Assembly (NCBI GenBank): GCA_018818105.1
Contig: JAHISK010000090.1
Span: forward strand, 1 to 33,305
Source of the DNA: Candidatus Omnitrophota bacterium
GTDB lineage: Bacteria; Omnitrophota; Gorgyraeia; Duberdicusellales; 4484-171
DNA length: 33,305 nt
Direction: 5' to 3'
The notes beneath the pieces are model-generated. The model searched no databases and was not told the origin of the DNA. It was given only the letters and a program-made list of their open reading frames with translations. A program made the position numbers and the translations under genes. Positions 1 to 22,293 of this stretch are shown here, piece after piece; positions within the stretch are counted from its first letter, which is position 1, and each line of letters begins with the position of its first letter.

Positions 1-1616
1 AATTTCATAACATACTGTTTCGCTCTTTGTGAAAACTGACTATCAGGATAATCCGAAATTAGTTTAGAAAATAAGTCTTTTGCCTTATCATAATTTTTTA
101 AATATTGATAATATATAAGTCCAGCATTGAATCTTGCTTCCAATGCTTTACTACTCTGAGGAAAAGCAGTAAAAATATGTTCATAAAGGCTTAATGCCTG
201 TTCTTTCCTAAACTGCTCATCTTTTCTACGACTGGCAAAATCTTTACCGCTATCTAAATTTCGAGCTTTATTAAATAAATTATATATAATACCCAACTCA
301 GCAGTCACCTCGCCACTGGTCTCAATTTTTTCTTCATGAACTTGCTTTTTGCTTACCATTTTTTTCTCTTCCATCGAACGTAATATTTTAGGAGTTATAA
401 ATACAGCCAACTCTTTCTGTTCAGCATCTCGCTCACTTCTGGAAAAAAGCAGCCCAATTAAAGGAAGCTTGCCTAAAATAGGAACTCTTTCTCTACTGCT
501 GTTATCCTGCTGCTTAATTAACCCTCCAATAACCAACGTTTCGCCCTCTTTTACTCGAACAGTCGTATCAGCCTCTCTGGTAGTAATACGCGGCCCTGCG
601 TCTAAGGCTTCTGATAAAGAAGATACTTCTGGATGCACACGCATAGTAATATAGCCATCATCATTTATCTGAGGCGTTACTTTTAAATTTGTTCCAATAT
701 CAACAAACTTAGTAGTTTCAGTGGTTCCGGTTGTTGTCTGCGTTCGCTCTTTATAGGGAAACCGCTCACCAATAACAATTCTCGCTTCCTGTCCGTTTAT
801 AACCGCTATAGACGGCGCCGCTAAAAGACTGGCTTTCCCATCACGAATTAAAGCATCAATGGTCGCGTTAATACTAACATCTTTTATCGTATAAGCATCC
901 ACTGTTAACTGACCACCGCTTAAAGTGCCAGATTGACCATCCATAGTAATAGTATTTTGTCCTTCATTATAATCCACGCTCCAGGTAATCCCTATATTAT
1001 GAAGATCTGTAGTTGTTATATCTATAATTTTAGCTTCTATCAAAACCTGTTTAGGCTGGGCATCAATCTTTGAAAGCAACTCTTTAACTCTTATAATATT
1101 TGCCGGATAATCAGTCATAATAAGGCTATTTGCCACATCATCAACTTTTAAATCACCTTTGGAAGAAACAACTTCCCTCAACATCCCTTGAGCAGCGGAA
1201 GCCCTAACATATTTTAGAAATAATACTTCGCTGGTTAAATCTATTACTTCCTGATCTCCCAGCGACACATAAATAATTCCCTCTCTTATGCTATAAACTA
1301 ATCCATTTATTGAAAGAATCGCCCCTAAAGCTTTATCTACCGTTACGTCTTTCAAGCTAATAGTTACTTTTCCTTTTACATCCGGACTCGTCACAATATT
1401 TAACTTATATGTCCATGACAAAGAGCGCAGTACGGTTGTAATATCTATATCTTTATAATCAAGATTTATTTTAACCGCTAATTTATCATCGAATAATTCT
1501 TTATCGCTCTTTCCAGAAGAAAGAACCTCCTCCCACTGCTGCTCTTCCTGAGCAAAAACTTGCCCCCCACACATAAACACAACAGTTACCACTATCCCTA
1601 CAATTATCTTACCCAT
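1..1616 (-). CDS. pilQ: Secretin (PilQ/GspD-like) with C-terminal TPR-like tail; 3' end truncated by window edge
   Basis: My translation from ATG at 1616: MGKIIVGIVVTVVFMCGGQVFAQEEQ (signal peptide), STN/N1-like region (INLDYKDIDITTVLRSLSWTYKLNIVTSPDVKGKVTISL), secretin core (VLIEAKIIDITTTDLHNIGITW, LLAAPSIAVINGQEARIVIGERFPY, GETLVIGGLIKQQDNSSRERVPILGKLPLIGLLFSRSERDAEQKELAVFITPKIL), then a TPR-like tail open to base 1. Absent from the ORF track because it runs off the edge. Confidence 0.93.
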   Translation of the reverse strand, partial: MGKIIVGIVVTVVFMCGGQVFAQEEQQWEEVLSSGKSDKELFDDKLAVKINLDYKDIDITTVLRSLSWTYKLNIVTSPDVKGKVTISLKDVTVDKALGAILSINGLVYSIREGIIYVSLGDQEVIDLTSEVLFLKYVRASAAQGMLREVVSSKGDLKVDDVANSLIMTDYPANIIRVKELLSKIDAQPKQVLIEAKIIDITTTDLHNIGITWSVDYNEGQNTITMDGQSGTLSGGQLTVDAYTIKDVSINATIDALIRDGKASLLAAPSIAVINGQEARIVIGERFPYKERTQTTTGTTETTKFVDIGTNLKVTPQINDDGYITMRVHPEVSSLSEALDAGPRITTREADTTVRVKEGETLVIGGLIKQQDNSSRERVPILGKLPLIGLLFSRSERDAEQKELAVFITPKILRSMEEKKMVSKKQVHEEKIETSGEVTAELGIIYNLFNKARNLDSGKDFASRRKDEQFRKEQALSLYEHIFTAFPQSSKALEARFNAGLIYYQYLKNYDKAKDLFSKLISDYPDSQFSQRAKQYVMK

Positions 1617-1640
1617 CGATTATCATTTTAAATTTACCAT

Positions 1641-1770
1641 GGCGCTGTTGCGAAATACCCCAAAAGTGTCATCCCTGCGAAAGCGGGGATACAAAACATT
1701 AATGGAATCAATGGATTCTGGATTCCCGCTTTCGCAGGAATGACAGAAAACGTTATTTCGCAACAGCGCC
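1641..1770. mobile_element. MITE-like non-autonomous element, 130 bp
   Basis: Perfect 17-bp terminal inverted repeats GGCGCTGTTGCGAAATA (1641-1657) / TATTTCGCAACAGCGCC (1754-1770); flanking direct repeat ACCAT (1636-1640 and 1771-1775); internal inverted arms GTCATCCCTGCGAAAGCGGGGAT (1668-1690) / ATTCCCGCTTTCGCAGGAATGAC (1722-1744); no coding capacity. Confidence 0.9.
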
Positions 1771-1784
1771 ACCATTTATCAATT

Positions 1785-1883: not shown

Positions 1884-1918
1884 ACTAAATACTATATACT
1901 AACGACTAAACACTATTC
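1884..1918. repeat. Heptad array ACTANNN x5
   Basis: ACTAAAT ACTATAT ACTAACG ACTAAAC ACTATTC, contiguous, ending at the stop codon of the PilO-PilP CDS. Confidence 0.85.
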
Positions 1919-2775
1919 TATCTTTCCACATAAAGAACATGCTCTTCTACTCCGTCAATAACAATAACCTTATCTGCTAATATTTCTTTAACCCGATATT
2001 CTGCTACCTCATCTCCCTCTTTAATAACTTCGCCATTGATAATAGCTGTTGGTAGCTTTGAGTCATAAGTTATACCTTCCAACTTTAACTTTGACTTTCG
2101 AATAGGCGTTACAGGCTTAGTCTTTGACACAAATATATCTCTCATTTGAGATGACACCTCGGTTACCTCTTTAGCCTTCATTAATTCAGAAAAAGTAATA
2201 TCCCCTAAAAGGCTTGTCAACACTATCCGAACCGGAGTAGCAGTACCTCTGCCAGACTTCGCGTTTACCTGAGAAATCTCTAATGCTTCTACCTTTAAAA
2301 ACGGAGATATTGTTTCCAATTTTCTTATATAGTTTATTGTATCCTGATAAGACGCGTTAAACTTTAACTCTACATATATACGAGAATAATTTTCTCCATC
2401 ATCTATCTTTTTACGAATAGAAATTAATTTAAATCCTTTTGCTAACCGCGTTAATTCTCCAATTAAACTCGGAACACTTTTCTTCGCCGGGACCTGATTC
2501 TCCCATGCCGCAATCACGCCAAGAGTGCTGTTGAATTCATCATTTAAGCTTCGTAAATCACGTTTTTGTTCATCTATCCGCGGAAACTTAGCCTCTATTT
2601 CAAATATCCTTGCTTTTAATTTCTCATTCTGAAGCTGATAAGTAGCGATATTCTTAACTACTGGTTTATACAAAATGTTATAATACCCACTTATTATTAT
2701 CACACATATAAATACAATTAAAAATCCTTTTTCGCTTTTTTTTAGCTTTTTAAAATTTAATAAATTATTTGTCAT
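1918..2775 (-). CDS. PilO-PilP fusion (T4P/T2SS alignment-complex protein)
   Basis: N-terminal TM then PilO-like coiled-coil/ferredoxin-like region; C-terminal PilP/GspC-like domain (LKLEGITYDSKLPTAIINGEVIKEGDEVAEYRVKEILADKVIVIDG). The track ORF extends to 2850, but residues 1-25 are translated from an intergenic repeat; MTNNLLNF at 2775 is the likelier start. Confidence 0.85.
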   Translation of the reverse strand: MTNNLLNFKKLKKSEKGFLIVFICVIIISGYYNILYKPVVKNIATYQLQNEKLKARIFEIEAKFPRIDEQKRDLRSLNDEFNSTLGVIAAWENQVPAKKSVPSLIGELTRLAKGFKLISIRKKIDDGENYSRIYVELKFNASYQDTINYIRKLETISPFLKVEALEISQVNAKSGRGTATPVRIVLTSLLGDITFSELMKAKEVTEVSSQMRDIFVSKTKPVTPIRKSKLKLEGITYDSKLPTAIINGEVIKEGDEVAEYRVKEILADKVIVIDGVEEHVLYVER

Positions 2776-2803: not shown

Positions 2804-2951
2804 AATTCCAAATAACAATTTCCAAATCCCAAATAAATCTCAATATACAATGATCAAAATTACAAACAATACGAAAACATTGATGTTTTGGTCATTTGAA
2901 AATTGGAATTTGGAACTTATTTGTTATTTGGTGCTTGTAATTTGTTATTTT
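2804..2951. repeat. Inverted heptad element, family A copy 1
   Basis: Left arm AATTCCA AATAACA ATTTCCA AATCCCA AATAAAT CTCAATA...; right arm TCATTTG AAAATTG GAATTTG (GAAC) TTATTTG TTATTTG GTGCTTG TAATTTG TTATTTT. Confidence 0.85.
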
Positions 2952-4872
2952 TATATAAATTTTGTAATCCCTCCCCCTCATCAAATTCCTTATCAGTACT
3001 TTCACCAGCCACAACAGAAACAATTTCAAACTTATAAATCTCAGCAGCCGGTTCTTTCTGCGTATAACTGAAATCAGCGCTTATAAAAAATGATGATTCT
3101 TTTATACTAGCTATTAATTGAGATATTAAACTCGTGTTAGTTGTAGACCCTGTTAACGTTACTTCGTTATCTTCATATTTTAACTCCGTAATCCAAATTT
3201 CTTCCGGTAGAAGCCGCGCAATTTCTCCTAATACCGCGGAAAATTCGTCAGGTCTTCTTACCCCATCTTTAAGAAGACGAACTCTGGAATCCAATAAATT
3301 TTTGGTTCCCATAATCTCCGCTTTTTCTTTAGATAACTCCAGCTCCATTCGCTGCAAAACTCCAAGCCTAGCTTTAATTTCTTTAACTTGCCGCGTGTAA
3401 AAAGACATCTTTGATTTATAAAAAGCGGCCTTTCCTATTTGAACGCCTAAAAACCCGACCCCAATCAAACCAACCAAAATACCGGCTAAAACCGTCTTCT
3501 TTTTTAAAGATTGAAAACAAAACTGAGCGAATTCGCTTCTTTTCTGAACTAATAAACTAATACGCTGCGACGTATCTATCCCTTGCCCCGCGGCTAATGC
3601 TGTACACACCGTAAAATTCACTCCCATATTTATAAAACGATTTCTTAAAGACTCACCTATATTCATGAGGCTGAATATTTTAAAAGGATTATACGGTTCA
3701 ACAGAAACACCTAACCTTGCGGTTAAAAACTGAACCAAATTTTTAAGATTTGCCCCTCCACCACAAAGAACTACCCGGTCAAATTTAGTAATTTGAGACT
3801 GCGTTACTTGATAAGAAAAATATTTAAAGGAGTGTTCTATATCTACTACTAAATTCTCTAAAAGAGAAATAAGACCATAATATACTTTTTTTGATTTATC
3901 ATTTGTTTCTTCAACCTCCTCTCCCGCTTCGAAAAAAGGAGTAATTTTTTTATCTGGCGCCCAAAAAATAAGACCGTACTTACTCATTAACTCTTTGGCT
4001 TGACCCACCTCCACACCACAATGAACCGCGACAGTTTCCGTCATTTTTTTAGAAGTTAGCGATAAACTCCTGGCAAAATTTAACTTTGTGCCCTTTTCTA
4101 TACCAATAAAACTCTCTTCCTCTCCAATATCTAACCACAAAATAACTTCATTATTCTTTACCGTTTCTAGTCCTGCTTTTTTCGAAAATTTATTCAAATT
4201 AATTAAACTTAGAGCTGGTACTTCTATACTTATAGGCCGAAGACCTACGCTATCAAATAAAGAAATCCACTTCTTTATCGTTTCCCGCAAAACACAAATA
4301 ATTATAATCTTACACTGAGATTGCCTTCCTAATACCATACCTCCATCATCCAACCTAATAAATCTAAAAAAGACATCATCAGCTCCTACCCCAAATGGTT
4401 TTAACTGCGATACTTTAAATTTTACCGCGGCTGTAAGCTCAAACTCTGACATAGGAGGAAAAACAACGTTAAAAAAAAGGACTTCTTTTGTAAATATAGT
4501 AAGCAAACAATCTCCGCGAACTTTATTACGTTCAATAATTCTTTGAAGAGTCTTTTTTAGGTTAACAACAGAATCATACCGAGGAACAGCATCATATCCT
4601 TCCTGGTCAATACGGGCAATATCTAAGTTTGAGTCTTTTCTCATTGCCATCTGAACTAACTTAATAGAGGACGTACCGATATCAATAGCGGGAGGCAACA
4701 GCATTGATTTAGGAAATGATATTTTCACCTCATTAGACACTACCTTAGGCGGATGCCTAAAATGTGTTAATAAAGTAGAAATCCCTTCCGTTAATATTTT
4801 TTTTCGTTCGAATACTTCTTTTACTATATTTTTAGTACTATTGAGACTGACAAATTTTTTCTCGGGCTCCAT
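2917..4872 (-). CDS. PilM-PilN fusion (actin-like cytoplasmic ATPase fused to bitopic PilN)
   Basis: LLPPAIDIGTSSIKLVQM (PilM), VVLCGGGANLKNLVQFL (actin-fold), TM TVLAGILVGLIGVGFLGVQIG, PilN-like LLPEEIWITELKYEDNEVTLTGSTTNTSLISQLIASIKES. Confidence 0.9.
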   Translation of the reverse strand: MEPEKKFVSLNSTKNIVKEVFERKKILTEGISTLLTHFRHPPKVVSNEVKISFPKSMLLPPAIDIGTSSIKLVQMAMRKDSNLDIARIDQEGYDAVPRYDSVVNLKKTLQRIIERNKVRGDCLLTIFTKEVLFFNVVFPPMSEFELTAAVKFKVSQLKPFGVGADDVFFRFIRLDDGGMVLGRQSQCKIIIICVLRETIKKWISLFDSVGLRPISIEVPALSLINLNKFSKKAGLETVKNNEVILWLDIGEEESFIGIEKGTKLNFARSLSLTSKKMTETVAVHCGVEVGQAKELMSKYGLIFWAPDKKITPFFEAGEEVEETNDKSKKVYYGLISLLENLVVDIEHSFKYFSYQVTQSQITKFDRVVLCGGGANLKNLVQFLTARLGVSVEPYNPFKIFSLMNIGESLRNRFINMGVNFTVCTALAAGQGIDTSQRISLLVQKRSEFAQFCFQSLKKKTVLAGILVGLIGVGFLGVQIGKAAFYKSKMSFYTRQVKEIKARLGVLQRMELELSKEKAEIMGTKNLLDSRVRLLKDGVRRPDEFSAVLGEIARLLPEEIWITELKYEDNEVTLTGSTTNTSLISQLIASIKESSFFISADFSYTQKEPAAEIYKFEIVSVVAGESTDKEFDEGEGLQNLYKNNKLQAPNNK

Positions 4873-5743
4873 TTCTTTTTACCTTTTTTTCGGACGCGGT
4901 TAATAAAACTACCTCTAGCGCTAAAGAAAAATAGTCGGTAGCACCATCTGAATCTGGAGCATAATCAAATATAGACCTCTTAAACGCAACAGCTTCAGAT
5001 AAAGACGCGTCTAAACGAATAACCGTCTTAAAAACTTTATCTTGGAAGTAATCCCGTATCTGGCTAAGAATATCTTGAGTAACTTTCCCTCGATTATCAA
5101 ACAAAGTAGGTAAAATTCCTAAAATTTGCAAATCAAGATTAAGTCGATCTTTTATTACTCTCAGTGTAGCAAAGAGATCTTTCATTCCTTCTAAAGAAAA
5201 ATAATGAGCCTGAATAGGAACAAGCACAGAATTCGCCGCGACTAACCCATTTATAGAAATAAGATTCAACGACGGAGAGCAATCTAATATTATATAATCA
5301 TAATTTTTTTTAGAATTATTCACCATCTTATAGAGCGCTGTCCTTAAAATACCTTCTCGACCTAATAAATCCGCTATCTCTAGTTGCGCGCCATTAAGCG
5401 CTGATGTTGCCGGCGCGATATCTAAATTTTCGAGATATGTTGGAACAATAACATATTCCAACTCGATATTTTTTACGATCACATCGTAAGTTGAACAACT
5501 TATGTTATCTACGCCAATACCTATACCTAAAGAAGCGTGAGCTTGAGCGTCTAAATCTATTAATAAAACTTTAAATTCCTGTCGCGCTAACGCGGCTGAA
5601 AGATTTAACGCTGTTGTAGTTTTGCCACACCCGCCTTTTTGATTTGTAACAGCTATAATCACAGGAAATTGACCACGTTTATATCGTTGAGAATCGTTTT
5701 GGATAAAAATATTTTTTATTTCCTCAAACATAATATGACCCAC
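4838..5743 (-). CDS. ParA/Soj-family ATPase
   Basis: Deviant Walker A VTNQKGGCGKTTTALNLSAAL, DLDAQAHASLGIG, YDYIILDCSPSLNLISING, VLVPIQAHYFSLEGM. 3' end overlaps the PilM-PilN start by 35 nt. Confidence 0.93.
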   Translation of the reverse strand: MGHIMFEEIKNIFIQNDSQRYKRGQFPVIIAVTNQKGGCGKTTTALNLSAALARQEFKVLLIDLDAQAHASLGIGIGVDNISCSTYDVIVKNIELEYVIVPTYLENLDIAPATSALNGAQLEIADLLGREGILRTALYKMVNNSKKNYDYIILDCSPSLNLISINGLVAANSVLVPIQAHYFSLEGMKDLFATLRVIKDRLNLDLQILGILPTLFDNRGKVTQDILSQIRDYFQDKVFKTVIRLDASLSEAVAFKRSIFDYAPDSDGATDYFSLALEVVLLTASEKKVKRNGAREKICQSQ

Positions 5744-6056: not shown

Positions 6057-6077
6057 ACGAACTACCAACTACAAACT
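6057..6077. repeat. Heptad array ACNAACT x3
   Basis: ACGAACT ACCAACT ACAAACT, overlapping the stop codon of the TPR CDS (6076). Confidence 0.7.
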
Positions 6078-8166
6078 AATTCTGTTCTCTTTCATTAAAA
6101 ATTGCCTGAGAGATACGGCTAAGGTAATAATTAGTTTCTTCATAATTTGGCAAGATGCGTTTTACTTCTTCAAATTTTTTTAACGAAGATTGATATTTAC
6201 CTCCCTCATACAGAGATACCGCTTGCCGATATAATAATGCCAGGTTACTCGCGGACGAACTTATCCTCTGTAATTTAGATTCAATACGATCAAAATAAAC
6301 TAACGCGATTTTATTATCAGGATGGTATTCAAGTATAGTTTTATATATAGATTTCGCGTCCATATAATGGCCTTGTTCATACAAAATTTCTGCTTCTTTA
6401 AGTAAGGAGCTAAGCCTATCCTCTTGGACTTTCTTTGTAATACGATGAATATAAATGAATGTATCTTTATAATTGGGATAAAACTCCTCTAATTGCTTAA
6501 ATTTTTCTAAAGCTTTTTTATGCTCTCTCCCATTGTATAAAAAACAAGCTTCTTTATATTTACCCTCAGCTGTAGCATCAATCATCTTTTTGTTCTCATC
6601 TTTATCATCTCTATCCTTTTTTAGTTCCACAAAAATAAGTTTAATATACTGCTCGGTTTTTTCATATTTAGGCCAACTTTCATTGACCTCTTTAAATTTA
6701 TTTATCGCGTCTAAATACATTTTTTTCTTATACAATGTAATTGCCTCTTTATAATCGGCTCTAACTTCCTCGGCAAATGCCTGTTCTTGCGCTTTACGAA
6801 TAGCCGCAAGTCCCCTCTGAATATACTTTTCCGTGTTCTTATACTTCGGAACTAAAATTTGCGCTTCTTTAAACTGCTCTAAAGCACCTCTATACTGTTT
6901 CTTTTTATACAACGTAACCGCCTGACAATAAACAAATTGAGCTTTCTCTATCAACTGCCGTCGCTTTTTCTCCCTAACCTTCGCCGGTATACGGTCCAGT
7001 TGAAATAACGCTACTGAATTCTGTGGGTCACGAACCAACACTTTCTGATAAATAATTTCTGCTTCAGTATAGTTTTCTTTTTCCAACACATTCTCAGCCT
7101 CTTTTAATAACAATTGAATTTCATCTCTTTTTATATCTTTATCTATACAATTAAAATAACTGGCAACATCTTTATAAACAGGATACTCTCTAGTTATTTC
7201 TTTAAATTTGTTCAAAGCCATTTGGTAAGACTTCTTCTTATATAGACTAACTGCTTCTTTGTATTTTTTTCCTATTCGTTTTGCCTGTAAATTCTTCTCG
7301 CCTAAATCCTTAACGTTTAAACTATGCTTGCGCTTTTTAATGTTTGAAGGAAGGTTTTCAATGAAGTATCTCGTCTGTTTATAATCAGGAGCTAGACCTT
7401 CTACTTCTTTGAACTTCTCTAAAGCACGGCTGTACTGACTGTCCTGGTATAAACTAACCGCCTGCTTATAAATATTCTGGGTTTGCCTCTCCCTCTCAAA
7501 TTTTTCTTGTTCTTTCATCTTTTCCGGAATTCGTTCCAAATAAAGCAAAGCAACATTATTTTCAGGATCAAGCTCAATAACTTCTTCATAAAAAGATTTC
7601 GCTTCCAAAAACTTACCGTCTTCATATAAACTATAAGCTTCTTTAAGAAATGATTCCGCCTTCTGGGCAGCATCTACGGAAACCTGTTGACACAAAGAAC
7701 TTGCTTCCTCTAACTGTATTTTCTTAAGATTTTTTTTTCCTTCAATATCGGAGGGAATTTTGTCCAGATAATATTTTGTTCTCTTATAATCAAGTAATAT
7801 GTCTTCGACCGCTTTGAATTTTTCTTGAGCTTGTTGATACTGTTTATTATTATACAAACCAAGCCCTTGATGATACAGGATATATACTTGCTGTTCTTTT
7901 TCGTATTCGGCTTTTTCTTTTATCTTTTCAGGAATAAGCTGCAAATAAAACACCGCGATAGCATTTTGGGGTTGTAATTTTACTACTGTTTCATAAACAC
8001 CCTTGGCTTCAACATAGTTTTCCTCTTCATATAATTCATTCGCTTTACGAATTAAAACATCAATATTTTCTGTCCGCCTATCCGTATCTTTACGGCTCTG
8101 GGCAAAACCATTATTTACCCCTAAAAAACATATACTATAAATTAGTATAGCGATTATATATTTCAT
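6076..8166 (-). CDS. Secreted TPR-like repeat protein (about 11 modules of two types)
   Basis: Signal peptide MKYIIAILIYSICFLGVNNGFAQ; repeated modules such as AVSLYKKKQYxxALxKFKEVxxxxPxYKxTxxYI (type B) and AExLYEExNYxEAKxxYExVxxxxPxNxxALxYLxRIPEK (type A). Confidence 0.88.
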   Translation of the reverse strand: MKYIIAILIYSICFLGVNNGFAQSRKDTDRRTENIDVLIRKANELYEEENYVEAKGVYETVVKLQPQNAIAVFYLQLIPEKIKEKAEYEKEQQVYILYHQGLGLYNNKQYQQAQEKFKAVEDILLDYKRTKYYLDKIPSDIEGKKNLKKIQLEEASSLCQQVSVDAAQKAESFLKEAYSLYEDGKFLEAKSFYEEVIELDPENNVALLYLERIPEKMKEQEKFERERQTQNIYKQAVSLYQDSQYSRALEKFKEVEGLAPDYKQTRYFIENLPSNIKKRKHSLNVKDLGEKNLQAKRIGKKYKEAVSLYKKKSYQMALNKFKEITREYPVYKDVASYFNCIDKDIKRDEIQLLLKEAENVLEKENYTEAEIIYQKVLVRDPQNSVALFQLDRIPAKVREKKRRQLIEKAQFVYCQAVTLYKKKQYRGALEQFKEAQILVPKYKNTEKYIQRGLAAIRKAQEQAFAEEVRADYKEAITLYKKKMYLDAINKFKEVNESWPKYEKTEQYIKLIFVELKKDRDDKDENKKMIDATAEGKYKEACFLYNGREHKKALEKFKQLEEFYPNYKDTFIYIHRITKKVQEDRLSSLLKEAEILYEQGHYMDAKSIYKTILEYHPDNKIALVYFDRIESKLQRISSSASNLALLYRQAVSLYEGGKYQSSLKKFEEVKRILPNYEETNYYLSRISQAIFNEREQN

Positions 8167-8279: not shown

Positions 8280-8684
8280 TTATTCTTCCCAATTCACAAC
8301 ATCATCTTCGCTTTCAACTCCGTCTCTGCCTAAAGAGTACAAATCATAATCATATGTCCGATGGACTCCGGGACTTTTATATTGATACAACCGACCCCAA
8401 GGATCAAGCGGTTTTTTTTCTAAATACGGACCTTTCCAATTAGTCGCTGAAGAAGAAGCTCTGGTTAAAGCGTCTAATCCTTCTTCCGTTGTAGGAAACA
8501 CACCATTATCTAATTCATAGAGTTTTAAGGCCGTGGGTAAATTTACCTCTATATCCGCCTTAGAAACCTTAATCCTTGCCTCTTCACTTCTTCCTGTTAA
8601 CCGCGGCATAACCATAGCAACTAATACCCCAATAATAATGACAACCAACATCAACTCAATCAAAGTAAACCCTCTTCGCTTCAT
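8280..8684 (-). CDS. gspG: T2SS major pseudopilin GspG
   Basis: Class III leader MKRRG|FTLIELMLVVIIIGVLVAMVMP; GspG C-terminal signature KKPLDPWGRLYQYKSPG...DYDLYSLGRDGVESEDDVVNW. Confidence 0.95.
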   Translation of the reverse strand: MKRRGFTLIELMLVVIIIGVLVAMVMPRLTGRSEEARIKVSKADIEVNLPTALKLYELDNGVFPTTEEGLDALTRASSSATNWKGPYLEKKPLDPWGRLYQYKSPGVHRTYDYDLYSLGRDGVESEDDVVNWEE

Positions 8685-8725
8685 TTTACCCCCTTTTTAA
8701 CATATACCCTAACTGGATAATTATA

Positions 8726-8880
8726 AATTCGAAGCACGAAATACAAAATTCGAAACAATTTTCAAATGTTCAAAATTTTAATACTTAAAATAAAAATGTT
8801 TTGCCTTTTTCGTATTCCGACATTCAATATCACATTTTCTTAGTTTGTTTCGTATTTCGATATTCGCATTTCGAATTTAA
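8726..8880. repeat. Inverted heptad element (AATTCGA / NATTTCG)
   Basis: Left AATTCGA AGCACGA AATACAA AATTCGA AACAATT TTCAAAT GTTCAAA; right TGTTTCG TATTTCG ATATTCG CATTTCG AATTTAA, reaching the gspK stop codon (8877-8879). Confidence 0.8.
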
Positions 8881-9689
8881 TACTCCTTCCATCTCTTTAT
8901 TTTCTCTCCCTCCATAATAATAATATAGCGCATAGCAGGTCTGTCAAGAATTTCTGTATTAATTTTTACAGCTAAATTATTAGATGACACCCCTAGTAAC
9001 TTTTTTCCTTTCAAAGAAATCAAAAGAGTTTGATCTTCTAAGAAAGAACTTACCTCTGTCACTTCAACACTTTCAAAAGCAACGTCATCTTCTGTTCCTT
9101 CTTGAAAATCAGGACCGCTACGATACGCTTTTATCCCATTAATTAGATCATCATTACAGCCCAACACTTTAAGGGTTTCCTCAGAAGCCGTATTAATGTT
9201 AACCGCGCCATCACCATATACAGTAATAATATCTTTAAACTCTTTATACTTATCTTCGGTGATACCTTCCACAAGTAAAACTTCCTCTACTAATTCAAAA
9301 GGATATAAAGGTGACTCCTTAATAGCGGAAGCTGCCTCCTCATCTAACCCCGGTAAATTAGCTATAATTTCTTCAGTCACTTTATTTATATTAATCTTGC
9401 TCTCCTCATCTACGATAGTGTACTTAAATCTTCCCTTGCCTAATTCCCCCTCAAAATCTGAACTAAATTCATATAAAGTATCATAAGCTGTCCCATCCCC
9501 TTGACGAACTCTCTTAACATACGCCACCGCCGCGTTTGCTGCGGATAAAGAAACTAATCGTTCTTCTAAAACTTTAGCAACTGTTATCTGAGAAGAAACT
9601 ATTTTATATATTCCTACGCTTAAAATAGAAAAAAATACCAACACCCATATCGCGAAGATCAAAAGACTAGCTCGTTTTTTAGTACGCAT
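8877..9689 (-). CDS. gspK: T2SS minor pseudopilin GspK-like
   Basis: Prepilin-like N-terminus (RASLLIFAIWVLVFFSILSVGIYKI) lacking Glu5, as in GspK; helix-hairpin-like region ININKVTEEIIANLPGLDEEAASAI...VNINTASEETLKVLG; position next to gspI/gspJ. Confidence 0.85.
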   Translation of the reverse strand: MRTKKRASLLIFAIWVLVFFSILSVGIYKIVSSQITVAKVLEERLVSLSAANAAVAYVKRVRQGDGTAYDTLYEFSSDFEGELGKGRFKYTIVDEESKININKVTEEIIANLPGLDEEAASAIKESPLYPFELVEEVLLVEGITEDKYKEFKDIITVYGDGAVNINTASEETLKVLGCNDDLINGIKAYRSGPDFQEGTEDDVAFESVEVTEVSSFLEDQTLLISLKGKKLLGVSSNNLAVKINTEILDRPAMRYIIIMEGEKIKRWKEY

Positions 9690-9705
9690 TTTTAATATTA
9701 CCCGG

Positions 9706-9840
9706 ATTGTAGGGGCGTCGCTTGCCTGCGCCCATAATACTATAAAATTATCAACAATTGAATGAATAATTATATCAAATCACATTCACGATATAATCAT
9801 AATTAATAATCGGGCGCAGACAAGCGGCGCCCCCTACAAT
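9706..9840. repeat. Inverted pair of REP-like units (BIME-like)
   Basis: ATTGTAGGGGCGTCGCTTGCCTGCGCCC (9706-9733) and GGGCGCAGACAAGCGGCGCCCCCTACAAT (9812-9840), near-perfect reverse complements with a GTAG head. Confidence 0.8.
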
Positions 9841-9861
9841 TATTATCTCTCTACCCTCTCT

Positions 9862-10488
9862 CTATTCCTGATCTTGCGGCTCTATTGTTTCCTCCCTACT
9901 TTCTTCGGCTATTTTTTTTGACGAAACTGGAATAAACACTGTTTTCACAAATTTATTATCTCCTACTTCAACCTCTAATTTTAATGCTGAAAAAATCCCT
10001 AATTCTTGATCCCACTCATCTACCCAACCATAGGAATCTTGCTCTTCATCCCAATAAAAATAGCTCACATAAAAACTATCTGCGGAGGAAAATTTCCTTT
10101 CGGTATACTCAACGTCCGCCGCCTCTATTTCCTCTTCCTTCGCGAAAAGAATATCTTCGAGCTTCTGAAACCGTAACAAAACACGATTGGAAGAAGAATC
10201 AAACTTATATGTAACTCTACCTATTGAATTAGCTAAAACCGCTGGGAAAAAAAATTCATCTTTAGTTCCGCCAAAGCCTACCGCAGATATATTCACGCTT
10301 TGACGTAACTGACTAGCTATCCTTTCAAGATTAAAGAGAGTTTCGCCTTGAACGAAATCTACGCCTCTAGCCCGACCCCAGATCTTCATGCCGGCAGTAA
10401 AACTTGAAGCTATCCCTACCGCTATGATAGAAAAAATCGTCATTACAACTATCGTCTCAATCAGTGTAAAACCCGGTTTTTTTCCCAT
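9862..10488 (-). CDS. gspJ: T2SS minor pseudopilin GspJ-like
   Basis: MGKKPG|FTLIETIVVMTIFSIIAVGIASSF; GspJ-like ...LFNLERIASQLRQSVNI. Confidence 0.82.
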   Translation of the reverse strand: MGKKPGFTLIETIVVMTIFSIIAVGIASSFTAGMKIWGRARGVDFVQGETLFNLERIASQLRQSVNISAVGFGGTKDEFFFPAVLANSIGRVTYKFDSSSNRVLLRFQKLEDILFAKEEEIEAADVEYTERKFSSADSFYVSYFYWDEEQDSYGWVDEWDQELGIFSALKLEVEVGDNKFVKTVFIPVSSKKIAEESREETIEPQDQE

Positions 10489-10503
10489 GATATTACAAAT
10501 GTT

Positions 10504-10530
10504 GTAGGGGCGTGGAAACTACGCCCCTAC
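10504..10530. repeat. REP-like hairpin
   Basis: Perfect 10-bp stem GTAGGGGCGT / ACGCCCCTAC with 7-nt loop, touching the gspI stop codon; same GTAGGGGCG head as the 9706-9840 units. Confidence 0.75.
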
Positions 10531-10979
10531 TAATATCCAAAATCCTGAACTGATTCATTAGACAAAAAATAAGTTGAGACACTCATCTCTTTTTCTCTAT
10601 ACTCTTGCGACCACGAAACAGAAAGTTGGGCGATATTAATCGTTTCACCCTTCTCAATTTGAGCTTCAATTTCTTCCTGTAACGTCATTTCATCTTCTAA
10701 ATCTAAAACTTCTACATTCAACTTAAACTTTGCTTCCCGATTACCGATTTGAATTTGTTCCTGTTCTTGATATTGTTCAATATATTTCTTCTCTAACACC
10801 TCCAGCCTAAGCTGACTCATTTTATCGTCTAAAAATTGGATAGCTTTTATCCGATTATAACTAGTATCCAAAGCGCCAACCATAGTTAGAAATGAACGAG
10901 AAATAAAAACTATCCCTATCGCCAAAATTGAAGACGCGATAATAAGCTCAACCAACGTAAACCCCTTTCTTTTATTCAT
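10530..10979 (-). CDS. gspI: T2SS minor pseudopilin GspI-like
   Basis: MNKRKG|FTLVELIIASSILAIGIVFISRSFLTM. Confidence 0.8.
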   Translation of the reverse strand: MNKRKGFTLVELIIASSILAIGIVFISRSFLTMVGALDTSYNRIKAIQFLDDKMSQLRLEVLEKKYIEQYQEQEQIQIGNREAKFKLNVEVLDLEDEMTLQEEIEAQIEKGETINIAQLSVSWSQEYREKEMSVSTYFLSNESVQDFGY

Positions 10980-11034
10980 TTCTTAACTATTTACCAAAAA
11001 TATTTTATGGAAAATCTAAGGCTTGTGTTTTGTC

Positions 11035-11076
11035 TGTCTTCTGTCTTCCGTCTTCCGGCCTCTGTCTTCCGCCATC
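11035..11076. repeat. Heptad array (NGTCTTC)
   Basis: TGTCTTC TGTCTTC CGTCTTC CGGCCTC TGTCTTC CGCCATC, contiguous, running into the stop codon at 11075. Confidence 0.8.
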
Positions 11077-11593
11077 ACGGAATCGTTATACTCACTACAC
11101 CATCTACTCTTAACGCTTGAGCCGCTTCATCTTTAGAAGTAATAGCTATTTTATCTAGTCTAATAAGCAACTTGCTCTCTCCTATCGCGTTTAAAAATTT
11201 AAGCAACTGGATAAACGACATTTCTAACCGAAAATCAGCCTTAAAAATATTAAGTTGAGTTTCCTTTTCCTGAGGATTTAAATTTATAACGGTTCCGCCG
11301 CAAATACGAATAACACTTTCAATTTCCTTCAGCAACATCGCGACTATATGTTTATCACTCTCTACCTCCACGTCTAAATAAGGCTTACTCTGTTCATAAT
11401 CCTGAAGGATTTTATCTTTTGTTTTCTCAATAGCAATCCCCTTCTTTAATTCCCTCTCCGTAAGCCTCACCTTACGATTTAACAGTTCTAAACGGTCACG
11501 TAATCCGGAAACAAAGAATCTATCCGCTAAAAATATAAACGCTACCACGACAACAATGTAAATAATGATTTTTTGACTTTTTGCAATCGCCAT
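11075..11593 (-). CDS. PilO/GspM-like bitopic protein
   Basis: Single N-terminal TM (IIIYIVVVVAFIFLADRFFV), coiled coil, C-terminal PilO-like FIQLLKFLNAIGESKLLIRLDKIAITSKDEAAQALRVDGVVSI; follows the GspL/PilMN-like gene. Confidence 0.75.
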   Translation of the reverse strand: MAIAKSQKIIIYIVVVVAFIFLADRFFVSGLRDRLELLNRKVRLTERELKKGIAIEKTKDKILQDYEQSKPYLDVEVESDKHIVAMLLKEIESVIRICGGTVINLNPQEKETQLNIFKADFRLEMSFIQLLKFLNAIGESKLLIRLDKIAITSKDEAAQALRVDGVVSITIP

Positions 11594-11621
11594 ATAATAA
11601 TTATTTAAATTTCATTAAATG

Positions 11622-11706
11622 TTTCAGGTCTCATGTCACAAGTAGCATGTCTTTAACACCCTCTCTACCTGTTACCTGCAACCTGCTACCTGTTTTTTGT
11701 ATCCTG
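11622..11706. repeat. Heptad array (NNACCTG)
   Basis: TTTCAGG TCTCATG TCACAAG TAGCATG ... CTACCTG TTACCTG CAACCTG CTACCTG TTTTTTG TATCCTG; overlaps the 3' end of the CDS ending at 11686. Confidence 0.75.
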
Positions 11707-13119
11707 TTTATCTATATCAAAAATAAAACCAATTTCAAAATCAGTAATCTCTCCCTCTACCATCTTTCTCTGCCGGGTATAATTTGTCCGAGCGGCCTCA
11801 ATATACCGCAATTTATCTAAAACTGTAGTATACTGAAACACTTCTGATAGATTATAAGCTTGACCCCGTAACGTTACTTTGTTGTTTTCATCCATTCCTA
11901 TGAAATTAAACGATATCCCTTTAGGCGTATTTTTTTGTAACTGGCTCATAATATAAAAATAAATTTGTCGATCGTTAACATACTTTTTAACAAACTCTAT
12001 TCTATCGAGTTGCCGCACTAAATTACCTACCCCCTCCTCAATTCCGGATTTTTTTTCCTTCAGCTTATTCAAATAATTTTCTTCATTATAAATACGGCCT
12101 AAAAAAATCACACAAACAAGCGATAAAATATAAATAGATAACGTCCCGCAAATACTTAAATCTTTTATCTTCTCGCGTATTGATTTTCTAATCTGAATAT
12201 CAGGAAGAATGAATGACAATCTATTATCTTTATCTTCTAATATTAAATTAGACGCGCTAGTTAGAGAAACATCCTTAGGTAAAGATCTCTTCCTCGCAGA
12301 GATAACCTCAGGAGGCACAATCCCAGACGCATTTAGAACTTCGATATCTAATTCTCCTTTGATTATTTGCCCTAAATTAGGTAAATCTATGCCTGACAAA
12401 AAAATCTTTACCGGTTTTTTATTTATCTCTTCATTCTGAAAAATTAATAACGACTGGCGTATCTCTCCCAAAAATTTTCTTTCGCCCACTTCACCATCAA
12501 TATCAGAAAATTTAATAGCAATGCTACGAGTAAATAACATATGTTCACCGCTAAAAATAATAAAATCAGTAAAAGTCGTATCAATGTCTAATATAAGATA
12601 TAAATCTGTCCGGTTTATCTGTGTCCGCTGGTTATGCACAACCGCCTGCCAAACACAGTAAGAACTCAAACTCACTTTATCTAATAAAAATCCCGCCTGA
12701 TCCAATATCTTTATCTGCCTTCTTATGATATCATTATGTACAATAGCTAAGATTACCCGACTATATCCCATATCATCTTTTCCCGCAAAACTATAATTAA
12801 AAACAACGTCTTCTTTCTTATATGGAACTATTCTGTCAATATGCAGCTCAATCATCTTAGATATCTCGTCTCTATTTTGTGAAGGCAAATGTAAATTCCT
12901 AACCGTAACGAAATTTCTCGGCAACGATACACCCACAAATTTAGGCTTATATTTATCTTTCTTTAAAATATCAACTATCATCCTAGAAATTCCGTCATCG
13001 TCACTATCCGGTAACGATTCCGCTATACAATCAAAAAGTTTTGAATGCATACCTTTAAACTTAACAATCGAAACTTTTAAATATTTTTCTGATACTTCTA
13101 CGCCTAAAGAAACCTTCAT
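11686..13119 (-). CDS. GspL-like / PilM-PilN fusion protein
   Basis: PilM-like VSLGVEVSEKYLKVSIVKFKG...GVSLPRNFVTVRNLHLPS...EISKMIELHIDRIVPYKKEDVVFNY; TM ICGTLSIYILSLVCVIFLG; PilN-like NTPKGISFNFIGMDENNKVTLRGQAYNLSEVFQYTTVLDKL. Confidence 0.82.
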   Translation of the reverse strand: MKVSLGVEVSEKYLKVSIVKFKGMHSKLFDCIAESLPDSDDDGISRMIVDILKKDKYKPKFVGVSLPRNFVTVRNLHLPSQNRDEISKMIELHIDRIVPYKKEDVVFNYSFAGKDDMGYSRVILAIVHNDIIRRQIKILDQAGFLLDKVSLSSYCVWQAVVHNQRTQINRTDLYLILDIDTTFTDFIIFSGEHMLFTRSIAIKFSDIDGEVGERKFLGEIRQSLLIFQNEEINKKPVKIFLSGIDLPNLGQIIKGELDIEVLNASGIVPPEVISARKRSLPKDVSLTSASNLILEDKDNRLSFILPDIQIRKSIREKIKDLSICGTLSIYILSLVCVIFLGRIYNEENYLNKLKEKKSGIEEGVGNLVRQLDRIEFVKKYVNDRQIYFYIMSQLQKNTPKGISFNFIGMDENNKVTLRGQAYNLSEVFQYTTVLDKLRYIEAARTNYTRQRKMVEGEITDFEIGFIFDIDKQDTKNR

Positions 13120-13145
13120 AATTTATCCACCAATATATTCTCTCT

Positions 13146-13173
13146 ACTAAATACTATATACTAACGACTAGAC
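13146..13173. repeat. Heptad array ACTANNN x4
   Basis: ACTAAAT ACTATAT ACTAACG ACTAGAC; 3 nt from the gspF stop codon. Confidence 0.82.
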
Positions 13174-13176
13174 CCC

Positions 13177-14427
13177 CTACCCCATCGTCTGCGTTATCTG
13201 AAACGTAGGAATAAGAATAGCCAAAACAATTGTCCCTAAAACTAATCCCAAAAAAAGAATCAACAGCGGCTCTAATAAAGAACTCACTAAAGAAATATCT
13301 GACTCTACATGTTGATTATACGAACCCGATATTTCACTTAATACCTCTGATAGGCGACCAGATTCCTCTCCCACCGCTACCATTTTTGTAAAAAAATTCG
13401 GTAAATCCGTTAATTCTTCTATACTAGCCGATATACTCTTTCCCGCGGATACTGAGTCATACACCTTTTCAAATGCTTTACGCGATCTTGGATCCTCTAG
13501 CGTCGGAGTAACAACAGCTAAAGAATCCAACACCGGCACACCTCTTTCAAGAAGAAGGCTTAATGACCGCGAAAACTGCGCTAACTCCTGATTTTTAATC
13601 ATGCGCTTGACAATAGGAAGCCGTCCCTTAATCTTTCTCGCTGTTTCTCTAAAAAAGCTCCCCCCTCCAGGCATACGTGACAAAACTAAAATAAAACCAG
13701 CCACCGCCGGTAAGATAATCCACCAGCTTTTATTAGAAAATTCACTAACACCTAAAACTAATCTAGTAAGTAACGGTAACTCTTCACCTAAATTATCAAA
13801 AATAGGTTTAAGTCGGGGAACAACAAAATTTATTAGCACAAAAATACTTGATACCCCTACAAATAAAAGTAACGACGGATACGCCAAAGCTACTGTGATT
13901 TTCTTACGCATAGCTTCTTCCCTGGATAAAAATTCATTTATCTGATCCAAAGCTGTGTCTAACGCTCCAGAAGCTTCTCCCGATTTGATAATATTCACGA
14001 ATAAAGACGAAAAAGTTTTAGGATAAAGTCTCAATGAATTAGAAAAAGAACGCCCTTCCCTAGTTTCATTATAAATCGCTAAAAGAATTTCACCAAAAAA
14101 AGGATTCTCACTCTGTTCATATAGTATTTTCAAGGCCGGAAGTAACTCTACTTTTGCTCTGATCAAAATTGCTAATTTTTGAGTAAAAACTAGAATTTGA
14201 TGCGAAGTAATTTTCTTACGAAACTCTATTTTAATGTTTGCAATACTCGGTTTCGCCTGAATTACTTTACCGGATGGAATTTCTCCCTTAATACCATAAC
14301 TAACAGAAATAGGATAAAGACCTTCCTTAAACAGCCTATTTAAAGCATCTTCCTTGTTCTGTGCCTCAATAGTGCCCTCTACAATATCCTTTAACCCCTT
14401 CTTAGCTTTATAAAAGAATTTTGCCAT
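13177..14427 (-). CDS. gspF: T2SS/T4P inner-membrane platform protein GspF/PilC
   Basis: Two GspF domains: HQILVFTQKLAILIRAKVELLPALKILYEQ and LAQFSRSLSLLLERGVPVLDSLAVVTPTLEDPRSRKAFEKV; C-terminal VSSLLEPLLILFLGLVLGTIVLAILIPTFQI. Confidence 0.96.
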   Translation of the reverse strand: MAKFFYKAKKGLKDIVEGTIEAQNKEDALNRLFKEGLYPISVSYGIKGEIPSGKVIQAKPSIANIKIEFRKKITSHQILVFTQKLAILIRAKVELLPALKILYEQSENPFFGEILLAIYNETREGRSFSNSLRLYPKTFSSLFVNIIKSGEASGALDTALDQINEFLSREEAMRKKITVALAYPSLLLFVGVSSIFVLINFVVPRLKPIFDNLGEELPLLTRLVLGVSEFSNKSWWIILPAVAGFILVLSRMPGGGSFFRETARKIKGRLPIVKRMIKNQELAQFSRSLSLLLERGVPVLDSLAVVTPTLEDPRSRKAFEKVYDSVSAGKSISASIEELTDLPNFFTKMVAVGEESGRLSEVLSEISGSYNQHVESDISLVSSLLEPLLILFLGLVLGTIVLAILIPTFQITQTMG

Positions 14428-14461
14428 GTTTTTTATTAGCGCAACGCCGCCACCGTCCCCT

Positions 14462-14496
14462 ACTATCGACTATATACTAAATACTAACGACTATCT
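14462..14496. repeat. Heptad array ACTANNN x5
   Basis: ACTATCG ACTATAT ACTAAAT ACTAACG ACTATCT, ending at the gspE stop codon (14496). Confidence 0.85.
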
Positions 14497-16175
14497 TATT
14501 CTTCTAGTTTCGTCACCCTTAATACTTCTTCCGGAGTTGTAATCCCTTCTTTCACTTTTGTCATTCCTACATCCCATAAAGTTTTAAATCCTAACTCTCT
14601 TGCTTTTTGTTGAATTTCGACCGATGACGTTTTCCTTAAAATAAGATACTGAATCTCACTAACTATAGGAAATATCTCATAAATAGTAGTTCTTCCTCTA
14701 TATCCAATAGATTTACAACTTTCACATCCCTTGCCGTAATAAACAGGAACATCCTGAAACGCTTGAGGCAATTTGTCCTTCTGTTTTTTTTCTGTTTTAC
14801 AAACAGGACATATCATTCTTACAAGTCGCTGAGAAATAAACGCGTTAACTGAAGAAGCGACTAAATACGGCTCTATGCCTATATCTATAAGTCGCGTAGC
14901 TCCACTCGCAGCGTCATTAGTATGCAATGTAGAAAAAATAAGGTGCCCGGTCAACGCCGTCCTAATCGCCAATTCCGCGGTTTCTAAATCTCTTACCTCT
15001 CCAATCATCATTATGTCAGGATCATGACGTAGGATACTTCTAAGCGCGCTGGCAAAATTAAAACCTATTTCAGGTTTAATCTGTATTTGCATAATCCCGC
15101 CAAGATCATATTCCACGGGATCCTCAATAGTAATAATCTTTACCGTATCTTTATTTAGTTTACTTAAACAAGAATATAACGTTGTGGTTTTTCCACTGCC
15201 TGTAGGTCCAGTTAGAAAAATAATACCATGAGGTTTTTGCATAATATCTTCTATCTGTTTAAAATCTTCAGGAAAAAACCCTAATTCTTCTAAATTAAAA
15301 AGTAAATGTGTTGGCAATATTCTAATCACCACACTTTCGCCATAAATTGAAGGAATAATCGAAATTCTTAAATCTATTTGTTTTGTATGAAGTTTAACAA
15401 TAGCGCGGCCATCCTGAGGAAGGCGTTTTTCAACAACATTTAAGCTGGACAAAATCTTTATTCTGGAAACTATTGATTGATGAAATGATTTAATTTGTTC
15501 AGAAATATTAATATCATAAAGGATTCCGTCAATACGGTACCTTACCCTTACTTTATCACGATAAGGTTCAATATGAATATCCGTAGCGCGGCTGGTTATT
15601 GCTTCTGACAATATCTGATTAACCAACTTAATTACTGAAGCCTCCTGCACGTTTTTTTCTACTTCTTCTATTTCTTCAACCTCCTGGCGGTGGGGTTTCT
15701 CTTCTTTTTTAGCTTCATCTTTCTTAAGAATCTTATCAACTGTATCAGCGCCAAATCCATAATATCGGCGAATTGCCACTAATATCTCTTTCTCTACAGC
15801 TAAAACTCTCTCTATATCATACCCTAAATGTAATTTTAAATCTTCCATAGACCAAATAGCTAATGGATCTGAAATCGCGATAGTAAGTACTCTTCCCTCA
15901 ACTTTAAGCGGCATAAATTTATAATGCCATACATACTTTACCGGAACAGCATCGATCACATCCTGTTTAATTTCTATATTTTTTAACGTGGGAGAAAACG
16001 GCAAGCCTAACTGTTGTCCTAAAACTTCCAATAAATGATCCTCCGTAATAAACTTAAGCCGCACTAATGTTTTCCCAATAACTTCTCCTTTTGCCTTAGA
16101 CTCTTCCAACGCAATTGTTAACTGCTCTGAACTAATCATCCCTTTCTTAATTAAAATTTCACCAATCTTTGCCAT
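14496..16175 (-). CDS. gspE: T2SS/T4P assembly ATPase GspE/PilB
   Basis: Walker A FLTGPTGSGKTTTLYS, IMMIGEVRDLETAELAIRTALTGHLIFSTLHTNDAA, CPVC...CESC zinc motif, N-terminal T2SSE_N/MshEN-like region KIGEILIKKGMISSEQLTIALEESKAKGEVIGKTLVRLKFITEDHL. Confidence 0.97.
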   Translation of the reverse strand: MAKIGEILIKKGMISSEQLTIALEESKAKGEVIGKTLVRLKFITEDHLLEVLGQQLGLPFSPTLKNIEIKQDVIDAVPVKYVWHYKFMPLKVEGRVLTIAISDPLAIWSMEDLKLHLGYDIERVLAVEKEILVAIRRYYGFGADTVDKILKKDEAKKEEKPHRQEVEEIEEVEKNVQEASVIKLVNQILSEAITSRATDIHIEPYRDKVRVRYRIDGILYDINISEQIKSFHQSIVSRIKILSSLNVVEKRLPQDGRAIVKLHTKQIDLRISIIPSIYGESVVIRILPTHLLFNLEELGFFPEDFKQIEDIMQKPHGIIFLTGPTGSGKTTTLYSCLSKLNKDTVKIITIEDPVEYDLGGIMQIQIKPEIGFNFASALRSILRHDPDIMMIGEVRDLETAELAIRTALTGHLIFSTLHTNDAASGATRLIDIGIEPYLVASSVNAFISQRLVRMICPVCKTEKKQKDKLPQAFQDVPVYYGKGCESCKSIGYRGRTTIYEIFPIVSEIQYLILRKTSSVEIQQKARELGFKTLWDVGMTKVKEGITTPEEVLRVTKLEE

Positions 16176-17245: not shown

Positions 17246-18643
17246 CTACTTTTTCACCAACTCATCAACATTACCAATCATATAAAACTTATCGTCAGAA
17301 ACAGAATCTAAGTTACCCGAAACTATTTGTTCACACCCGACTATAGTTTCCTCTAAAGAAAGATAAACTCCCTTGGTTCCGGTATATAACTCCGCGGTAA
17401 AAAATGGCTGTGTTAAAAAATTCTGCATTTTTTTTGCTCGGTCAAATATAACACGTTCCTGTTGAGACAGTTCTTCCCGTCCAATAATGGCAACAATTCT
17501 TTGCAACTCTTGATACCGCTGAAAATGTCTTATCACCTCCTGCGTAATATTAAAATGGCGTTTTCCAATAATAACAGGATCTATAAAACCGCTGCTTGAC
17601 TGCAATGGATCTATCGCTGGATACAACCCCCTCTGAACGTATTCACGAGATAAAACAAGCATTGAATCTAAATGGGAAAAGATAGCTACAACTGCCGGGT
17701 CAGTCAAATCATCGGCAGGAACATACACAGCTTCTGCCGACGTAATAGCCGAAGACTCAGTAGACCTAATTCTTTCATGAAACTCACTGATCTCACTGGC
17801 CAAAGTAGGCTGATATCCCGTTTCTGAAGGAATTCGCCCCAACAAAGCGGACAACTCTGCTCCCGCTTGAGCAAAACGAAAAACATTATCAACAAAAAAC
17901 AATACATCCTGACCTCTATTTAAAAAAGCTTCTGCTAAACATATCCCGGCTCCAGCCGCCTCAAACCTCGCTCCGGGAGACTCATTCATCTGCCCAAAAA
18001 CTAAAATAGAACGCTTCAAGAGATCAGCTTTTTCAAACTCATAATACAACTCGTTACCTTCTCTTATACGTTCGCCAATCCCACTAAAAATACAAGTACC
18101 TCTTTGTTTAGTAATAATATTATGAATAATTTCCAAGATTAAAATAGTTTTACCTAAAGCAGCTCCACCCAAAATACCTGTTTTAGACCCTTTTATTAAA
18201 GGAAATAATAAATCAATGACTTTTATCCCTGTAGCCATAATCTCATATTTAAGTTTTTTACTTTCATCAATAATAATTTCCTTAGACTCTTTTCCTTTCG
18301 AACGAATGGGCACATACTCTGATACTTTTATCTCACCTTTATCGTCAATGGGTTGACCTAAAACATTTAATATTCTTCCATACAACTCTTCGCCTACCGG
18401 CATAGAAAGCGACTTATGCGTTCGCTGACATAAGGAATTACGTTTTAATCCAAAGGTAGGAGTTAACGCGATACAACGACATATATTTGGTTCATAATGT
18501 TCTACTACTTCTAAAATCATTTCCTCACCATAAGAGGTTATAGACTTAAGAATCTCATAAATAATAGGCAACGCGCCCTCTTGAAATTGAACGTCAACAA
18601 CTGCCCCGTAGACCGCTAAAATTGTACCTTCATTCTTAGTCAT
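17246..18643 (-). CDS. atpD: F1 ATP synthase subunit beta
   Basis: [17 protein letters not shown] (P-loop), [108 protein letters not shown]. Confidence 0.96.
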
Positions 18644-18689
18644 CTTTCTACTTCCCTATTTTTATACAATCTTCCATCTTAAAAATAAA

Positions 18690-18866
18690 CAATACACAAT
18701 TAACAAATTACAAACAATATACAATTACGAATACACAAACAAAAATAAAATTTTTTTATTAATTATCTCTAAATACATTCTTTATCTATTCTTTCTCTCC
18801 CGTTTGTTTATTGTTTATTGTCTATTGTTATTTGTTTGTAATTTGGGAGTTGTTTATTGTGATTTC
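18690..18866. repeat. Inverted heptad element, family B copy 2
   Basis: Left CAATACA CAATTAA CAAATTA CAAACAA TATACAA TTACGAA TACACAA; right TTTATTG TTTATTG TCTATTG TTATTTG (TTTG) TAATTTG GGAGTTG TTTATTG TGATTTC. Confidence 0.85.
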
Positions 18867-18869
18867 ATA

Positions 18870-19739
18870 TTAAAACGCTCCACTTAGCCCAACTTTTTTC
18901 TTTAATAAAATTTTTGTCGCCGAAATCTCACGAATAGCCTTATCACTCAAAGCATGCACCTGCTTAAAATAAGAGAGAGTAACTTTTTTGCTTACAACAT
19001 TTAGTTCTTGAGTACTTCCTTCTAAATGCATGATTCTAGCAGCGAATTCCGCCTGTTTTGCTGAAGAAAATATTTCCAAAAGTTTATAATCCATCCAGAG
19101 ATGGACTAAAGAGTTAATCACTCTCCTTATAAACGGCTCAATAAGAATATCTCCCATCTTTTTGCCAATATCTAACTTTGATGACGAAAAAGAATACGGT
19201 AAAAAAGGAAACACACTTATTCGTTGAGAAGTCAAAGATATAAATTCCGGAGACACGATAATAATACGCCCAAATTTTTTATTATATCGGCTTAATAAAT
19301 AATTAATTATCTTTTGAGATTCGTTAGAATCAATCGTTTCAGTAATCCCTGGAAAAAAAACAAACCGATCTCCTCTATCTTCTAAATATCTAGCCCCGCG
19401 TTCTCCTAAAATTATAATTTCATCTCTATCCGATTGTTTCCTCTCAAAAGCGGCATTAATACACAGTATATTCAGCTCTCCTAAAAAGCCCTCGTCCGAA
19501 GTTATTATTACTATACCCTGCGGCAGTCCCTCGTTTACCGCTAAATAGGGAGAAGAAACCTTCCTCTCTATTAATAATTTAAAACCAGCCTCTAACTCTT
19601 TCAAATAATCCGCGTTCAATTTTTCTTTCCCTTGAAAAAAACAAAACTGGACTAATGCCGCTGTTTTAAACGCGTCAATTACCCCTCCTAAATCTTTTAT
19701 TAATTCTAAATCCTGTTTTAATTTTGCTAATGCTTTCAT
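18870..19739 (-). CDS. atpG: F1 ATP synthase subunit gamma (divergent N-terminus)
   Basis: C-terminal signature SSAKQAEFAARIMHLEGSTQELNVVSKKVTLSYFKQVHALSDKAIREISA; mid-domain IVIITSDEGFLGELNILCINAAF. Confidence 0.88.
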   Translation of the reverse strand: MKALAKLKQDLELIKDLGGVIDAFKTAALVQFCFFQGKEKLNADYLKELEAGFKLLIERKVSSPYLAVNEGLPQGIVIITSDEGFLGELNILCINAAFERKQSDRDEIIILGERGARYLEDRGDRFVFFPGITETIDSNESQKIINYLLSRYNKKFGRIIIVSPEFISLTSQRISVFPFLPYSFSSSKLDIGKKMGDILIEPFIRRVINSLVHLWMDYKLLEIFSSAKQAEFAARIMHLEGSTQELNVVSKKVTLSYFKQVHALSDKAIREISATKILLKKKVGLSGAF

Positions 19740-19834
19740 TAACCGCTTATTTTCTTAACTTATATTTACAAACATATACCATTTACCTGCTTTATCATTA
19801 CTCTCTGTTTATTCATTGTATGTTGTTTGTAATT

Positions 19835-21328: not shown

Positions 21329-21340
21329 AATTAAATTCCT

Positions 21341-21530: not shown

Positions 21531-21536
21531 AATTCG

Positions 21537-22274: not shown

Positions 22275-22293
22275 ATTTATTTCCCCTTATAAT

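Follow-up and report, generated by a model that had tools for sequence, protein, structure and literature searches.

The secretin gene at the left end of this DNA raises the question of what a TPR module is doing at the C-terminus of an outer-membrane channel. An earlier, sequence-only reading had proposed that the module may be a built-in pilotin, of the kind represented by PilF, PilW and Tgl, which could take the place of a separate TPR pilotin. The DNA analysed, hereafter called the window, is the entire contig G000:C19 of 33,305 bp, part of an Omnitrophota draft genome (2.03 Mb in 157 contigs), and its features are collected in Table 1.

Table 1. Coordinates of the secretin gene, its parts and its neighbours in the window
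Feature	Position	Strand	Remarks
Secretin gene, cut by contig end	3..1616	-	STN/N0, N1, secretin core, C-terminal TPR tail
TPR tail, CpoB/BamD-type, last residues absent	3..284	-	residues about 445-538
Charged linker, variable	285..377	-	residues about 414-444
Secretin core	378..854	-	PF00263, residues 255-413
Inverted-repeat element in the pilO-secretin gap	1640..1771	.	18-nt perfect arms, 116 bp apart
PilO/GspM-like protein	1918..2775	-	conserved neighbour, upstream of secretin
PilM with PilN-like C-terminal part	2917..4872	-	conserved neighbour; relative L058 matches PilM_2 and PilN
ParA/MinD-type ATPase	4838..5743	-	conserved neighbour; relative L058 matches AAA_31
Separate many-TPR protein	6076..8166	-	apparent signal peptide; upstream of ParA
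Second, T2SS-like operon	8280..16175	-	GspG, GspK, J, I/H, M-like, PilM/GspL-like, GspF, GspE

The secretin and the structure of its tail

Positions 1-360 of the window, where the tail had been proposed, were found to be the 3' portion of the minus-strand secretin ORF. The product is 538 aa long up to the left end of the contig, with the frame unbroken into the tail, and both motifs quoted in the earlier reading occur in its translation. Pfam gave the order STN (STN/N0-like), one Secretin_N, Secretin (residues 255-413, E 4.4e-52; 176.5 bits against a gathering cut-off of 27.5, which is passed) and TPR_6 (residues 493-526; E-value 3.3e-8 in the whole protein and 4.2e-10 in the tail alone). The nearest NCBIfam models are PilQ and GspD, both under their cut-offs; PilQ (TIGR02515) scored 250.5 bits against 284.35, the truncation of the protein falling after the matched part, and GspD (TIGR02517) scored 224.7 against 351.35. 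The gene product is the outer-membrane secretin of an Omnitrophota type IV pilus/T2SS-like machine. Its genuine C-terminus is absent, and complete relatives mostly extend 15-51 aa beyond residue 534, a few of them 146-285 aa.

The AlphaFold2 model of the whole window secretin (mean pLDDT 73, pTM 0.41) matched solved secretins. Helices of the tail were predicted at residues 432-456, 467-484, 489-505, 509-522 and 527-537. The block-mean pLDDT lies at about 80-95 onward of residue 441, and residues 426-439, which form a flexible linker, fall below 50; the tail modelled by itself reached a mean pLDDT of 86. Its content corresponds approximately to one canonical TPR with half-repeats on its flanks. 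The presence of a C-terminal TPR tail on this secretin is thus confirmed by the Pfam TPR_6 match and the AlphaFold2 helices, as well as by the orthologs described below.

Conservation and evolution of the tail

Orthologs were searched for in 58 related genomes and in 384 genomes sampled across Omnitrophota. Those from independent genomes align to the query through the tail, and their translations contain it; the relatives obtained from the scan of related contigs, which reaches close relatives only, are all Omnitrophota. Among 28 aligned members, the mean pairwise identity is 0.33 in the tail, 0.66 in the core and 0.20 in the linker, and the tail is nearly gap-free. Most conserved positions in it resemble those of ordinary TPR packing, and no conserved surface patch was demonstrated in this conserved-position analysis. 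A tail profile was built from the 28 members and run on 94 secretin ORFs; every high-scoring secretin ORF has the tail except L090 and L100, and no other ORF does. At least 10 tailed members outside the 28 building sequences also match the profile.

In a maximum-likelihood tree of 91 Omnitrophota secretin cores, a 42-member clade was recovered (support 100/99) in which 40 members carry the tail, whereas the 49 secretins outside it, five of them from the window's genome, are all without it. The presence of the tail on this tree takes a minimum of 3 changes as compared to a shuffled mean of 30, a pattern for which a single early gain and two losses would suffice. The tail appears, from these sequences, to have been carried by the clade since an old ancestor. 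Moreover, tail distances follow core distances (r = 0.864; 0 of 2000 permutations), and tail and core evolve together and are inherited as one. A chance or assembly fusion is ruled out by the orthologs across genomes, the tail profile and the clade distribution. A tailed member is present in 38 of the 384 sampled genomes, spread over 20 families. The window's genome has seven secretins, of which two are tailed, the one in the window and another on contig C109, which finishes in a long, charged extension of coiled-coil-like character. By eye, four members of one family (L013, L043, L086 and L092) have a TPR-like N-terminal stretch in addition to the C-terminal tail.

Relationship of the tail to known TPR proteins

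The repeats had been described in the sequence-only reading as YbgF-BamD-type, and here NCBIfam, PDB profile and fold searches agree with it. At E <= 0.01, YbgF was matched by 26 and BamD by 25 of the 28 tails. These matches lie below the family cut-offs: the tail scored 29.9 bits against 90.1 for CpoB/YbgF (TIGR02795) and 23.9 against 81.4 for BamD (TIGR03302). The PDB profile search with the tail placed CpoB on top (1.2e-17), followed by BamD and YbgF. Foldseek with the tail model was led by the YbgF TPR (2xev) and BamD (3qky); their E-values are weak, at about 0.01, as is unsurprising for so short a repeat. CpoB/YbgF and BamD are cell-envelope TPR proteins for protein docking. They are the best matches of the tail in both sequence and fold; however, they are free envelope proteins, whereas the tail is part of a secretin and scores far under their family cut-offs.

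The proposed kinship with PilF, PilW and Tgl did not hold. None of the 28 tails scanned matched PilW (TIGR02521) at E <= 0.01, and no PilF, PilW or TadD structure was among the matches listed in the PDB profile and fold searches with the tail, both of which CpoB/YbgF and BamD lead. The tail as a PilF/PilW homologue is therefore rejected by all three kinds of search. In size too the two are far apart, the five tail helices amounting to about two and a half hairpins against 13 helices in PilF (PMC10499894).

Free TPR proteins were also found. Contig C4 of the window's genome encodes a 247-aa TPR protein with a lipobox, whose PilW and Tgl matches are weak and under cut-off, and contig C110 encodes the genome's own BamD-like protein. 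PilW was above cut-off in none of the 384 Omnitrophota genomes, the control genomes being equally silent, so that this absence carries no information.

Gene neighbourhood of the tailed secretin

In relatives, the first half of the locus has the order HTH, ParA/MinD, PilM(-N), PilO and tailed secretin, and past the secretin it continues with GspF, pilin-like genes and GspE, in some cases after a coiled-coil or TPR protein. The window carries ParA, PilM-N, PilO and secretin in this order, and the remainder lies beyond the contig end. On contig C14, about 23 codons that close a reading frame come first; after them lie a 969-aa signal-peptide/coiled-coil/TPR gene, a GspF that shares 60% identity with its counterpart in L120, a near relative, and then pilin-like genes, GspE and a response regulator. 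From this gene order, C14 is the likely continuation of the window. Its start showed no overlap with the end of either C19 or C109, and the window's opening 26 bases recur on no other contig of the genome. A separate coiled-coil/TPR protein adjoins the tailed secretin in several relatives, and through C14 the window's genome probably has one in this position too. In a deep group (L130, L131, L135 and L136), PilM, PilN and PilO are not at the secretin locus and the tail is retained, which indicates that the tail serves the secretin itself and not those neighbours.

The T2SS-like operon of the window is not the one that accompanies the tailed secretin as its conserved partner. Across the genome there are 17 occurrences of the arm of the inverted repeat between pilO and the secretin gene, including at least six copies with both arms at the equal 116-bp spacing, and the element is a MITE-like repeat. 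At the operon end of relatives, a large secreted repeat protein was observed (L058:1124-4501, L123:3-4835, L126:3-4040 and L142:8269-9150), which begins ..ARAGTLEFDGVPVDIT in L058 and L142; no Pfam family matched it, and it may be the machine's surface product. Elsewhere in the window, minus-strand ATP synthase genes (17246-22870) adjoin the T2SS-like operon, and among them the 21537-22274 protein looks by eye like a fused b-delta subunit. Two large secreted proteins (25961-29197 and 31520-33304) show repeated Ig-like-looking units by eye, with no Pfam match above cut-off. Contigs G000:C61 and G000:C155 carry very long open frames, with 12,225 and 8,809 codons, respectively.

Tail-less members and the lipobox

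Only L090 and L100 of the 42 clade members are without the tail. L100 (G059:C37) ends 13 aa past the core and has a clear lipobox, LAGC; its N-terminal extension is TPR-like by eye, without a Pfam match. The order of G059 is represented by two genomes only, the second one being without the secretin. L090 has lost this tail, has no lipobox and carries instead another, weakly TPR-like end. In a pattern scan, the window secretin was without a lipobox pattern, and the tailed members scanned had no convincing lipobox following the signal peptide; L093 is the sole pattern match among them, at a site which precedes the signal peptide end. The loss of the tail in L100 may be compensated by lipidation, a single event hinting at a piloting role.

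Proposed role of the tail

As the most likely reading, at about even weight for and against, we propose that the tail is a built-in docking platform which places, anchors or stabilises the channel. Beyond the core, the flexible linker would connect to the small TPR module, of CpoB/BamD type, at the position of the S-domain in other secretins. Known secretins have 12-15 subunits, and in the assembled channel the modules would form a ring at the periplasmic side of the outer membrane, where each may bind a periplasmic or outer-membrane partner. Candidate partners are the BAM machinery, the coiled-coil/TPR protein encoded beside the secretin in several relatives, a lipoprotein, or a protein linked to peptidoglycan, and such binding would help to place, anchor or stabilise the secretin channel. 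The small size of the module, the lack of a demonstrated conserved patch on its surface and the fact that L090 and L100 dispense with it speak against this docking role.

The built-in pilotin of the earlier reading, in which the tail both delivers its own secretin to the outer membrane and favours multimer formation so that a separate pilotin becomes unnecessary, survives in part, and we consider it unlikely on the whole. What stands is a conserved TPR module located at the pilotin-binding end, together with the use of TPR proteins (PilF, TadD) as pilotins in related systems (PMC10499894) and the contrast between tailed members lacking a convincing lipobox and the lipobox-bearing, tail-less L100. 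On the other hand, the kinship to PilF/PilW/Tgl is absent and the tail is missing the lipid anchor through which pilotins work; moreover, L100 is one event, and L090 lost its tail without gaining a lipobox. The idea that the tail replaces a separate TPR pilotin is not borne out, given the free TPR lipoproteins encoded in the window's genome, the one on C4 among them, and the coiled-coil/TPR protein beside the secretin in several relatives. The refutation set out in the earlier reading applies by half: there are free TPR proteins, yet the tail is strongly conserved.

A slightly poorer prospect is a clamp in which adjacent tails touch and form a collar stabilising the secretin ring, without an outside partner. 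TPR modules can pack side by side, and both the co-inheritance of tail and core and the retention of the tail across loci of differing gene content would suit such a clamp; however, the long, variable, low-confidence linker is easier to reconcile with a tethered module than with a rigid collar. The broader proposition that this is a phylum-wide lineage with its own pilotin-like C-terminal TPR, which needs no lipoprotein pilotin to reach the outer membrane and in which tail and lipid anchor are interchangeable, as L100 hints, is in our judgement improbable. An accidental TPR fusion retained without function, to which the lower conservation of the tail than of the core and its absence from two clade members might point, is very improbable for a module kept almost gapless in 40 of 42 clade members and in 20 sampled families.

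Comparison with known systems

The insertion of secretins into the outer membrane varies among systems and is solved by unrelated pilotins. A large uncultured lineage with a folded docking module as the pilotin-binding end would offer a testable case of a fused solution, for which the tail-less, lipobox-bearing clade member gives a natural comparison. Further, the tailed secretin marks one family of pilus/secretion machines in Omnitrophota whose gene order is conserved. No published secretin with a C-terminal TPR tail was found in the open-access literature searched, and within that literature a CpoB/BamD-type module fixed at this end throughout a large clade of Omnitrophota is undescribed.

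Fused TPRs in a secretin are already known as an idea from Akkermansia PilQ (Amuc_1098 family), which comes from a related superphylum and whose three N-terminal TPRs were likened to pilotins by its authors (PMC4960237). That protein has 907 residues with the TPRs at its N-terminus, whereas the TPR of the window secretin is C-terminal, and against the model of the Amuc_1098 family (NF042912), whose cut-off is 750, the window secretin reaches 75 bits. Lipidated secretins, the liposecretins such as HxcQ, are a possible parallel to the tail-less L100, whereas the tailed members carry an ordinary signal peptide.

The RcpA-TadD and PilQ-PilF/PilW pairs resemble the present case in that a TPR fold works with a secretin. 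TadD, a TPR lipoprotein of PilF-like fold, attaches to the four C-terminal residues of RcpA (PMC10499894); TadD and PilF/PilW are separate lipoproteins, whereas the tail consists of five helices within the secretin chain, is of CpoB/BamD type and has no lipid. In GspD/PulD/RcpA-type secretins the C-terminus is the pilotin-binding end (PMC3542185, PMC10499894), and the C-terminal S-domains of PulD/GspD are necessary for pilotin-dependent targeting (PMC3542185). Like the window secretin, GspD/PulD have an extra C-terminal region past the core, theirs being required for assembly (PMC3542185); however, their S-domain is short, natively disordered and bound by PulS/AspS, whereas the tail of the window secretin is a folded TPR module.
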